The notes beneath the pieces were generated by a model, which did not search any database, had not been told where the DNA came from, and saw only the letters and a list, made by a program, of their open reading frames with translations. Shown in pieces: positions 37,897 through 40,741 of a stretch of DNA of 64,000 nucleotides (positions are counted from its first letter, which is position 1; each line of letters begins with the position of its first letter). Both the position numbers and the translations under genes were made by a program. Source of the stretch: Tepidimonas fonticaldi (GTDB lineage Bacteria > Pseudomonadota > Gammaproteobacteria > Burkholderiales > Burkholderiaceae_C). The stretch lies in NCBI RefSeq assembly GCF_007556755.1, contig NZ_VJOO01000011.1, positions 1 through 64,000 on the forward strand, in the 5' to 3' direction.

Positions 37897-37934
37897 GTGC
37901 GGGCCCCGGCCCGCTCCACCCCCACCGTTCCCCC

Positions 37935-39227
37935 ATGACCACCGTCCGCGTCCTCACCGGCATCAAACCCTCCGGCACCCCGCACCTGGGCAACTACGTC
38001 GGCGCCATCCGCCCCACGGTGCGTGCCAGCCGCGAGCCGGACATCGACAGCTACCTGTTCCTCGCCGACTACCACGCCCTCATCTCCACCCACGACCCGG
38101 CGCGCGTGCAGCGCTCCACGCTGGAAATCGCCGCCACCTGGATCGCCTGCGGACTGGACCCCGAGCGCGTCACCTTCTACCGCCAGTCCGACATCCCCGA
38201 AATCCCGGAGCTGACCTGGCTGCTGGCCTGCGTCTGCGGCAAGGGGCTGCTCAACCGCGCCCACGCCTACAAGGCGGCGGTGGACAAAAACACCGCCGAC
38301 GGGCGCGACGCCGACGACGGCGTCACCATGGGCCTGTTCATGTACCCCGTGCTGATGGCGGCCGACATCCTCATGTTCAATGCGCACCGCGTGCCCGTGG
38401 GCCGCGACCAGATCCAGCACATCGAAATGGCGCGCGATCTGGCCTCCAGCTTCAACCACCACTACGGCGAGCATTTCACGCTGCCGGAGGCCGTGATCGA
38501 CGAACAGGTGGCCACCCTGCCCGGCCTGGACGGCCGCAAGATGAGCAAGAGCTACGACAACGTCATCCCGCTGTTCGCCCCGCGCGAGCAGCTGCGGCGG
38601 CTCATCATGGGCATCGTCACCGACTCCCGCGCGCCGGGCGAACCCAAAGACACCGAGGGCTCGGCGCTGTTCCAGATCTACCAGGCCTTCGCCACGGCCG
38701 AGGAAACCGCCGCCCTGGCGCGCGACTTTGCTGCCGGCATCGCCTGGGCCGAGGCCAAAGAGCGGCTGTTCGAGCGCATCGACCGCGAAATCGCCCCCAT
38801 GCGCGCGACCTACGACGACCTGATGGCGCACCCGCAGCGGGTGGAGGCCCTGCTGCGCGCGGGCGCGGCCAAGGCGCGCGTGCAGGCCACGCCGTTCACC
38901 GCACGGCTGCGCGCCGCCGTCGGTCTGCGGCCCCTGGACGACCTGGCCCCGCCCCCCGCCGCCGAGGCAACCGGCACCAAGGTCGCACCGCCGGTTTTCA
39001 AGCAGTACCGCGAAAGCGACGGCCGCTTCTATTTCAAGCTGACCGACGCCAAGGGCCATGTGCTGCTGCAAAGCACGGGGTTCGACTCGCCCAAGGCCGC
39101 GGGACAGGCCGTCGCCCGCCTCAAGGCCGAAGGCTGGAGCGGCTCCCCGGATCTGCACGCACTGCTCGAGGCGTACGCGCCGGCCGAACGCATCGATGCT
39201 GCTCTGGCCCTGCTGCGCGAGGCCTGA
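37935..39227 (+). CDS. trpS: Tryptophan-tRNA ligase TrpS with C-terminal DUF1508-like extension
   Basis: TrpS charges tRNA-Trp. The class I core shows TGIKPSGTPHLGN (HIGH-like) and GRKMSKSYDN (KMSKS). The product is 430 residues, about 95 longer than E. coli TrpS (334). The extra C-terminal part (about 350-430) contains FKQYRESDGRFYFKL and STGFDSPKAAGQAVARLK, which resembles the DUF1508/YegP domain. That domain is found on TrpS of related Betaproteobacteria; its role is unknown. ATG 37935 lies 39 bases after the protease gene; tRNA-Ser follows. Confidence 0.95.
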   Translation: MTTVRVLTGIKPSGTPHLGNYVGAIRPTVRASREPDIDSYLFLADYHALISTHDPARVQRSTLEIAATWIACGLDPERVTFYRQSDIPEIPELTWLLACVCGKGLLNRAHAYKAAVDKNTADGRDADDGVTMGLFMYPVLMAADILMFNAHRVPVGRDQIQHIEMARDLASSFNHHYGEHFTLPEAVIDEQVATLPGLDGRKMSKSYDNVIPLFAPREQLRRLIMGIVTDSRAPGEPKDTEGSALFQIYQAFATAEETAALARDFAAGIAWAEAKERLFERIDREIAPMRATYDDLMAHPQRVEALLRAGAAKARVQATPFTARLRAAVGLRPLDDLAPPPAAEATGTKVAPPVFKQYRESDGRFYFKLTDAKGHVLLQSTGFDSPKAAGQAVARLKAEGWSGSPDLHALLEAYAPAERIDAALALLREA

Positions 39228-39265
39228 ACGCTGCGGGCCGATCGCCCCCAAAAACCGCTCCCTCT

Positions 39266-39286
39266 AGCCTGCTACAATAGCAGGCT
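39266..39286 (+). promoter_or_regulatory. 9-bp palindrome over a TACAAT box upstream of tRNA-Ser
   Basis: A perfect inverted repeat, AGCCTGCTA (39266-39274) and TAGCAGGCT (39278-39286), flanks CAA, so the whole element spans a TACAAT -10-like hexamer (39273-39278). It ends 10 bases before the mature tRNA. No T-run follows, so a terminator for trpS is unlikely, and no -35 box is evident. A regulator-binding site or a leader-processing hairpin are both possible. Confidence 0.5.
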
Positions 39287-39296
39287 TGTCGACCGC

Positions 39297-39389
39297 GGAG
39301 AGATGGCAGAGTGGTCGAATGCGCCGGACTCGAAATCCGGTATACGGGTCTTCCCCGTATCGAGGGTTCGAATCCCTCTCTCTCCGCCA
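39297..39389 (+). tRNA. tRNA-Ser (anticodon CGA)
   Basis: A complete 93-base cloverleaf: acceptor GGAGAGA pairs with TCTCTCC, the anticodon stem CCGGA/TCCGG encloses CTCGAAA with CGA at 39331-39333, and a long variable arm (typical of class II tRNAs) precedes the T-arm GAGGG-TTCGAAT-CCCTC. CCA is encoded (39387-39389). It reads UCG codons. A terminator follows and trpS precedes it. Confidence 0.97.
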
Positions 39390-39397
39390 CGAATCCA

Positions 39398-39434
39398 CCC
39401 TTTCCGACGACAGCCGGAAAGGGTTTTGTTTTTT
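39398..39434 (+). terminator. Rho-independent terminator after tRNA-Ser
   Basis: A perfect 9-bp stem (CCCTTTCCG at 39398-39406 and CGGAAAGGG at 39415-39423) with an 8-base loop is followed by TTTTGTTTTTT (39424-39434). It begins 8 bases after the tRNA CCA end and points away from it, so it ends the tRNA-Ser (and possibly trpS) transcript. Confidence 0.9.
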
Positions 39435-39499
39435 CAGCGTGGCTTCGTGGGATGGCGGGGAACTGCCTCGACAAGAGAGGCGGGAGTGCGCACGTTGCT

Positions 39500-39575
39500 T
39501 GGTGCCGCTTGTCTGACTCGAACAGACGACCTACCGCTTACAAGGCGGGTGCTCTACCAACTGAGCTAAAGCGGC
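39500..39575 (-). tRNA. tRNA-Thr (anticodon TGT)
   Basis: On the minus strand, a 76-base cloverleaf starts GCCGCTT, pairs with AAGCGGC at the 3' end and has encoded CCA (39500-39502). The anticodon loop CTTGTAA contains TGT (39542-39540), and the T-arm is GTCTG-TTCGAGT-CAGAC. It faces tRNA-Ser in convergent orientation, 110 bases away, and lies downstream of sspB. No terminator is obvious on its 3' side. Confidence 0.96.
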
Positions 39576-39609
39576 TGAGCGGGCAACCCGTGCGCAGGGT
39601 CGCCCGTCG

Positions 39610-39634
39610 GGCAGGGCTCCATTGTAGCCCTGCC
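39610..39634 (-). promoter_or_regulatory. 9-bp palindrome over a TACAAT box upstream of tRNA-Thr
   Basis: Read on the minus strand, GGCAGGGCT (39634-39626) and AGCCCTGCC (39618-39610) form a perfect 9-bp inverted repeat around ACAATGG, so the element includes TACAAT (39626-39621). It starts 4 bases after the sspB stop and ends 34 bases before tRNA-Thr. No T-run follows, so it is not a standard terminator. It resembles the element before tRNA-Ser (GCTACAAT shared). Confidence 0.5.
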
Positions 39635-39638
39635 GGGA

Positions 39639-40130
39639 TCACTTGATCCGGGTCAGCGTCGGGCGCTTGCCGCCACGTGCCGGGTGGCCATCACCATCGC
39701 CGCCGTCGTGGGCGGTCTCAGCGGGGGCGTCGGCCGGGGTATCGGTCGGCTCACGTGCCTCGTCGCTGGCCACCACCTGCAGCCGCTGGGACGGCGTATC
39801 CGCCGAGGCCGGCTGCGGGGCGGGAAAGGCCATGCCCTGCCCGTTCTCGCGCGCGTAAATGGCGATCACATGGTCCACCGGCACCACCACGTCGCGCGGC
39901 ACCCCGCCAAAGCGGGCCTTGAACTCGACCACGTCGTTGCCCAGCCGCAGGCCGCTGGTGGCGTCGAAGCTGACGTTGAGGACGATTTGACCGTCGCGCA
40001 CGAACTCGCGCGGCACCTGCACGCGCTCGTCCACCGCGACCACGATGTAGGGCGTGAAGCCCCCGTCCGTGCACCATTCGTGCAGGGCACGGATGAGGTA
40101 CGGGCGCGTGGAGGGCAGATCGGTGTCCAT
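39639..40130 (-). CDS. sspB: ClpXP protease specificity-enhancing factor SspB
   Basis: SspB tethers ssrA-tagged proteins (from stalled ribosomes) to ClpXP. The 163-residue product has the folded tag-binding domain at the N-terminus (STRPYLIRALHEWC, GQIVLNVSFDATSGL) and an acidic disordered linker. The C-terminal tail GGKRPTLTRIK resembles the ClpX-binding tail of E. coli SspB (GGRPALRVVK). ATG 40130 overlaps the sspA stop by one base (TGATG), the usual sspA-sspB pair. Confidence 0.94.
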   Translation of the reverse strand: MDTDLPSTRPYLIRALHEWCTDGGFTPYIVVAVDERVQVPREFVRDGQIVLNVSFDATSGLRLGNDVVEFKARFGGVPRDVVVPVDHVIAIYARENGQGMAFPAPQPASADTPSQRLQVVASDEAREPTDTPADAPAETAHDGGDGDGHPARGGKRPTLTRIK

Positions 40131-40741
40131 CACTTGCGCATGACCTTTTCGGACGGCGTCAGGGCCTCGATGTAGGCCGGCCGCGAGAAGATACGCTCGG
40201 CGTACTTCAGCAGCGGGGCGGCATTCTTGTTCAGCTCGATGCCGTAGTGGTCCAGGCGCCACAGCAGCGGGGCGATCGCCACGTCCAGCATGGAGAAGTT
40301 GTCCCCCAGCATGAACTTGTTCTTCAGGAACACGGGGGCCAACTGGGTCAGGCGGTCGCGGATGTGGGCCTTGGCCTTCTCGATCTGTTTATCGGTCGGC
40401 TTGGGCGTGCGCTGCTCCAGCACCGAGACGTGCGAGAACAGCTCCTTCTCGAAGTTGAGCAGGAACAGCCGCACGCGCGCACGGTCCACCGGGTCGCCCG
40501 GCATGAGCTGCGGATGCGGGAAGCGCTCGTCGATGTACTCGTTGATGATGTTGGATTCGTACAGGATCAGGTCGCGCTCGACCAGGATCGGTACCTGGCC
40601 GTAGGGGTTCATGACCGCGATGTCCTCGGGCTTGTTGTAGAGATCCACGTCGCGGATCTCGAAATCCATGCCCTTCTCGAACAGCACGAAACGACAACGG
40701 TGCGAATACGGGCAGGTGGTGCCCGAGTACAGAACCATCAT
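40130..40741 (-). CDS. sspA: Stringent starvation protein A (SspA)
   Basis: SspA is a glutathione-S-transferase-fold protein that binds RNA polymerase in stress. The 203-residue product has MVLYSGTTCPYSHRCRFVLFEKG with the GST-like thioredoxin fold and NPYGQVPILVERDLILYES. ATG 40741 (or the adjacent 40738) is preferred over TTG 40762 because AGGAG lies 10 bases upstream. It sits upstream of sspB and downstream of petC, an order found across Burkholderiales. Confidence 0.95.
   Translation of the reverse strand: MMVLYSGTTCPYSHRCRFVLFEKGMDFEIRDVDLYNKPEDIAVMNPYGQVPILVERDLILYESNIINEYIDERFPHPQLMPGDPVDRARVRLFLLNFEKELFSHVSVLEQRTPKPTDKQIEKAKAHIRDRLTQLAPVFLKNKFMLGDNFSMLDVAIAPLLWRLDHYGIELNKNAAPLLKYAERIFSRPAYIEALTPSEKVMRK

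Follow-up and report, generated by a model that had tools for sequence, protein, structure and literature searches.

Perfect palindromes over the -10 boxes of two tRNA genes in Tepidimonas fonticaldi, and a hairpin with covarying pairs in the tuf/tRNA-Trp spacer of the genus

Results and discussion

Genes and palindromes at the tRNA-Ser and tRNA-Thr loci

The window, the whole 64,000 nt stretch of Tepidimonas fonticaldi DNA that was analysed, contains two tRNA genes identified by ARAGORN: tRNA-Ser(CGA) on the plus strand (39297-39389) and tRNA-Thr(TGT) on the minus strand (39575-39500). Upstream of tRNA-Ser lies an open frame for a TrpS-like tryptophanyl-tRNA synthetase (37932-39227, plus strand; PF00579, 184.6 bits; the frame is given as searched, with a provisional start), and upstream of tRNA-Thr lies sspB (39639-40130, minus strand, the open reading frame ending at 39639; PF04386, 137.4 bits). 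The C-terminal residues 362-399 of the TrpS-like protein, numbered in the searched frame, resemble DUF1508, with a score of 20.3 bits versus a cut-off of 22 bits.

Between each protein gene and the co-directional tRNA gene behind it lies a perfect 9-bp inverted repeat, and on reading the sequence both proved to be exactly as the initial annotation had described them, each placed over a TACAAT box between the protein-gene stop and the tRNA. The repeat at tRNA-Ser (39266-39286, plus strand) starts 38 nt behind the trpS stop codon, and consists of AGCCTGCTA (39266-39274), a 3-nt loop CAA (39275-39277) and TAGCAGGCT (39278-39286). The repeat at tRNA-Thr (39634-39610, minus strand) follows the sspB stop codon by 4 nt and is 34 nt from tRNA-Thr, with arms GGCAGGGCT (39634-39626) and AGCCCTGCC (39618-39610) enclosing the 7-nt loop ACAATGG (39625-39619). 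As RNA, the Ser palindrome folds with a z-score of -2.4 versus shuffled sequence (39260-39300) and the Thr palindrome with a z-score of -4.0 (39608-39640, minus strand). The tRNA-Thr leader also contains a second hairpin between the -10 box and the tRNA, with a strong stem of 12 pairs (39577-39608, minus strand), and a different stem occupies the same place in one related genome (G005). An Rfam search of 39150-39750 returned nothing above threshold except the two tRNAs; a sub-threshold match to the sRNA sX4 (36 bits, gathering threshold 70) covers tRNA-Ser and the stretch behind it (39285-39485).

TACAAT is read as the ordinary -10 box

The TACAAT box of tRNA-Ser is located at 39273-39278 on the plus strand and is preceded by TGC, which we take to be extended -10-like; both TACAAT and TGC are present in 11/11 species of the genus. 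The TACAAT box of tRNA-Thr is located at 39626-39621 on the minus strand and is found in 10/11 species, with TAAAAT in the remaining one (G002). Both genes thus have a TAnAAT box upstream that is kept in relatives, as in a sigma-70-type promoter. No sigma-70 hexamer pair was found in a consensus scan of 38900-40200 and neither gene has a recognisable -35 sequence, which bears out the earlier remark that a good -35 box is lacking.

In the 3.0-Mb genome CTACAAT occurs 86 times, versus 12 copies of the reversed control, and an ATG lies within 50 nt 3' of the motif at 55/86 sites, versus 41/86 in the equal-length upstream stretch. We read TACAAT as the ordinary -10 box of this organism, since it fits the TAnAAT consensus -10 and weak -35 of Burkholderia cenocepacia as given in PMC4603805. 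The Ser and Thr promoters resemble other Burkholderiales sigma-70-type tRNA promoters in these two properties (on the B. cenocepacia evidence in PMC4603805), but differ in the perfect inverted repeat around the box. At three places in the genome, two CTACAAT motifs lie on opposite strands 13-25 bp apart (L137, G000:C13:57588-57623; L154, C32:4580-4606; L156, C33:14676-14714), an arrangement like that of overlapping promoters.

The initial annotation had proposed a shared factor or a shared 5' leader hairpin for the two tRNAs, and neither proposal is supported. The sequence common to both elements, GCTACAAT, is the general -10 box and therefore does not point to a special factor, and a shared operator of a sequence-specific factor was rejected because the arms at the two sites are unrelated, as are those of different species. 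With regard to a leader hairpin, transcription is expected to start approximately 7 nt past the -10 box, near 39285 for tRNA-Ser and near 39614 for tRNA-Thr, which by this spacing would be inside the 3' arms, so that the tRNA primary transcripts would lack the 5' arm and share no more than a few nt with the hairpin. The palindromes are thus unlikely to form a shared tRNA leader hairpin.

The palindromes are rare within the genome

The reference to both tRNA genes in the initial annotation is correct for the window, but there are 46 tRNA genes genome-wide, and the other 44 lack a palindrome over the -10 box. Chance expectations were obtained by swapping 3' flanks between sites, and the -10 boxes of the tRNA promoters were chosen by script. 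Centred stems of at least 8 bp were present at 2/86 CTACAAT sites, those of tRNA-Ser and tRNA-Thr, with 0.17 expected, and at two of this genome's 35 tRNA promoters, with 0.05 expected; these counts are post hoc, as the Ser and Thr sites had been picked for being palindromic. None of the other 84 CTACAAT sites has a centred stem of at least 8 bp, and the centred palindrome was accordingly rejected as a general promoter feature. At one site (L146) there is an off-centre 9-bp stem, with its 3' arm running into the CTACAAT box. The 60 nt upstream of tRNA-Pro(CGG), tRNA-Ala(GGC) and tRNA-Arg(CCG) in this genome are structured as well, with z-scores below -2.5.

The -10 box is kept across the genus and the arms are not

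The Ser and Thr loci were compared in 11 genomes of the Tepidimonas group, i.e. this genome (G000) and 10 others, with the C64 copy of tRNA-Thr used for G001, as the C294 copy has only 30 nt upstream. At both loci the -10 box is kept across the genus and the palindrome arms are not, and in the nearest relatives (G004, G005 and G006) the stems measure just 2-5 bp at both.

For tRNA-Ser, stems of at least 6 bp were present in 2/11 species, this genome and G008, which have the same arms, versus 1.86 expected on exchange of flanks among the Ser promoters. Stems of at least 8 bp were also found in 2/11 (0.54 expected, p = 0.03), and when this genome was left out there was no excess of stems of at least 6 bp (1/10 versus 0.90). 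For tRNA-Thr, centred stems of at least 6 bp were present in 4/11 species versus 0.54 expected, a number reached in 0/2000 exchanges, and in 3/10 versus 0.49 (p = 0.0055) without this genome; these stems, of 9 bp in this genome, 10 bp in G001 and 6 bp in both G003 and G010, have four unrelated arm sequences. In other genera, two of the 73 Thr loci have stems of at least 6 bp (0.9 expected), with a summed stem length of 233 versus 200-204 (0/500), and 2/16 Ser loci have such stems versus 0.15-0.25 expected (p = 0.006-0.016), a usable site being available in 16 of the 28 tRNA-Ser loci.

These data can be explained by chance acting within promoter constraints: G/C flanks the -10 box in a GC-rich genome, and two sites may have drifted to perfect palindromes without any hairpin function. 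Part of the symmetry would come from the promoter itself, as TGC before the box and a GG(C)TT-like sequence behind it are enough to yield TGC...GCA. The TGC is invariant at the Ser promoters of the genus, and within 13 nt after the -10 box a GG(Y)(T/C)T-like motif is present in 17/34 of this genome's own tRNA promoters versus 13/86 CTACAAT sites. The flank exchange among Ser promoters and the lack of conservation of the arms are both as this explanation would have it, but the unrelated perfect stems at tRNA-Thr and tRNA-Trp exceed what is expected from flank exchange or letter shuffling, and the Trp hairpin, described below, covaries. We give chance a probability somewhat short of one half, and the caveat of the initial annotation that chance may be involved survives, above all for tRNA-Ser, where the excess disappears without this genome.

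The excess of stems belongs to tRNA-Ser, tRNA-Thr and tRNA-Trp

In six genomes, 150 tRNA promoters among the matches listed were searched for centred stems, the tRNA genes taken in from the five relatives being 28/37 matches in G001, 36/48 in G003, 35/47 in G007, 34/44 in G008 and 34/49 in G010. There were 11 stems of at least 6 bp versus 2.3 expected, and 6 of at least 8 bp versus 0.24; none of these stems was among the G007 promoters listed. After removal of tRNA-Ser(CGA) and tRNA-Thr(TGT), the 139 remaining promoters among the matches listed had 5 stems of at least 6 bp versus 1.8 expected (p = 0.05) and 2 of at least 8 bp versus 0.15 (p = 0.017). When tRNA-Trp was removed as well, 136 promoters among the matches listed had 2 stems of at least 6 bp versus 1.6 expected, and none of at least 8 bp versus 0.09, on which ground the palindrome was rejected as a general feature of tRNA promoters. 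Among the promoters listed in the six genomes, the excess belongs to Ser, Thr and Trp alone, and each of these tRNA genes is located behind a co-directional protein gene (trpS, sspB and tuf, respectively).

The initial annotation had proposed an alignment of the upstream regions of all tRNA genes in this genome and its relatives, and had named absence of the palindrome at other tRNA genes, or lack of conservation in close relatives, as results that would speak against it. Both were largely what was found, with the feature missing from the other 44 tRNA genes and the arms unconserved in close relatives, yet unrelated palindromes recur over the Thr and Trp -10 boxes of relatives beyond the expectation from flank exchange.

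Folding of the 60 nt before tRNAs was somewhat stronger than background in this genome (mean z-score -0.88) and G008 (-0.93), and little stronger in G003 (-0.38) and G001 (-0.43), the background being -0.26 for the 84 other CTACAAT sites and -0.13 for 150 random windows. In none of these four genomes was the z-score lower by more than 0.1 where a protein gene is located nearby upstream than elsewhere (means behind a protein gene/elsewhere of -0.90/-0.83, -0.90/-0.99, -0.28/-0.51 and -0.31/-0.66). For whole spacers the mean z-scores were -0.80 for Ser, -1.66 for Thr and -2.49 for Trp, with single values up to +2.5 (Thr in G006), and these means include three spacers that the script mis-cut at a wrong stop codon (Trp in G000 and G010, Ser in G000).

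Covariation in a hairpin of the tuf/tRNA-Trp spacer

In G003, the end of EF-Tu (GAGVVSKIIE and stop) is followed by CGGCCTGCCG-CTACAAT-CGGCAGGCCG and then by tRNA-Trp. Of the ten species with an identified locus, nine have a hairpin here, which comprises 9-12 pairs and stops 2-5 nt short of tRNA-Trp (L361, L007, L330, L384-L387, L389 and L390; 36 nt before tRNA-Trp); the exception is G002, with no hairpin in the 36 nt examined, and G006, which gave no tRNA-Trp match, was left out of the Trp counts. In four species (G001, G003, G009 and G010) the loop contains CTACAAT or TACAAT, and the remaining five have CCCC, TTTT or GAT there; the hairpin is thus independent of the -10 box. An 11-bp AT-rich hairpin is also located between tuf and tRNA-Trp in a genome of another family (L406, G039).

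An alignment of the nine hairpins (A2, without G002 and G006), which was trimmed by hand and so leans toward structure, had 95.7% of cells pairing versus 85.8% after shuffling, 11 cells changed on both sides versus 4.5, and a covariation score of 0.510 versus 0.306, each with 0/500 shuffles as extreme. Pairs changed on both sides numbered 5/11, a number that 46/500 shuffles reached. Slid controls of the alignment were at most 47.7% paired, RNAalifold returned the same inner nine pairs, and the spacers were rechecked using a fixed 36 nt before the tRNA. Several of the pairs are G-U, which points to a hairpin that would act at the RNA level. In the five species with the hairpin but without TACAAT, there is no TAnAAT within the 36 nt before tRNA-Trp, so tRNA-Trp is probably transcribed from further upstream in these species.

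The G-U pairs also bear on the possibility of a device at the DNA level, in which both promoters would be governed by a palindrome-binding factor or by extrusion of a cruciform. The perfect symmetry centred on the -10 box at two sites would fit such a device, but G-U pairs would break a DNA palindrome, the arms are unrelated between sites and species, and the 84 other CTACAAT sites lack a comparable centred stem; we regard it as highly improbable.

The palindromes could alternatively belong to terminators of the upstream genes, with a hairpin that ends transcription from trpS and sspB ahead of the tRNA promoter, or helps Rho to do so. Both palindromes are GC-rich stem-loops located after a stop codon, in sequence as well as predicted fold, which they have in common with canonical intrinsic terminators, and their position behind it, at 38 and 4 nt, is in favour of this explanation. 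They differ from intrinsic terminators in containing the -10 box of the next promoter and in lacking a T-run at their 3' side, as the initial annotation had noted, although PMC8355165 argues that the U trail is not essential. The terminator scan called neither palindrome, the sole terminator-like site in 38900-40200 being located behind tRNA-Ser (39397-39424, with 0.7 expected by chance). Moreover, in the five species without TAnAAT before tRNA-Trp, transcription must probably pass the related Trp hairpin. A role in termination is thus unlikely.

A possible spacer hairpin of read-through transcripts

The arrangement shared by trpS/tRNA-Ser, sspB/tRNA-Thr and tuf/tRNA-Trp is that of a tRNA gene directly behind a co-directional protein gene, with a short spacer that often contains a GC-rich hairpin. 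Tentatively, and at somewhat less than even probability, we propose that this hairpin would be part of the RNA that reads through from the protein gene and would hold the -10 box in its loop. Its sequence may drift as long as pairing persists, and the AT-rich -10 box of the tRNA would end up in the loop, which pairing does not constrain. Within read-through transcripts, such a hairpin would part the mRNA from the tRNA, and after cleavage at the tRNA by RNase P or a different nuclease, a hairpin just upstream may cap the new 3' end of the mRNA.

By analogy with the covarying tuf/tRNA-Trp hairpin, found both with TACAAT and without it, the palindromes at tRNA-Ser and tRNA-Thr would be spacer hairpins of trpS and sspB read-through RNA; this and chance are the two most likely explanations. 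Several findings count against the spacer hairpin: tRNA-Ser has no excess once this genome is set aside, and its arms recur in G008; the stems of G004, G005 and G006 are short at both loci; the distance of 34 nt between the Thr palindrome and its tRNA is unlike that of the Trp hairpins; and structure before tRNAs is not stronger behind nearby protein genes in the four genomes compared. A spacer hairpin overlapping a promoter is best seen at tuf/tRNA-Trp, plausible for tRNA-Thr and unproven for tRNA-Ser. Overall, the spacer hairpin and chance within promoter constraints are equally likely, with chance the better explanation for tRNA-Ser. An ordinary promoter combined with a hairpin of the upstream transcript, or chance, is in any case a more likely explanation than a new system of tRNA control.

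In E. coli, tRNA genes are also located behind protein genes, and mRNA-tRNA polycistronic transcripts cut by RNase P were reportedly described by Mohanty and Kushner in 2008, with secG-leuU as an example. The loci described here are similar in having a tRNA behind a protein gene, perhaps on one transcript, but differ from secG-leuU in having a predicted hairpin directly ahead of the tRNA that overlaps its promoter. A literature search yielded nothing that we recognised as an arrangement of a palindrome over a tRNA -10 box.

A further possibility, which we consider rather unlikely, is a genus-specific nested device, in which approximately 25 bp would serve both as a covarying hairpin of read-through mRNA and, in its loop, as the -10 box of the tRNA, with upstream transcription and initiation meeting there. 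In such a device loops would become promoters and revert during evolution, as the tuf/tRNA-Trp series suggests. The symmetry axis of the -10 hairpins varies from case to case.

Conclusions

If the palindromes arose by chance, they are a warning that ordinary promoter constraints can yield perfect palindromes over -10 boxes. If the spacer hairpin is real, the same bases of this compact, GC-rich genome would encode both an mRNA hairpin and a tRNA promoter. The tuf/tRNA-Trp hairpins would then represent a natural experiment within the genus, with pairing maintained as a -10 box appears in the loop or is lost from it.
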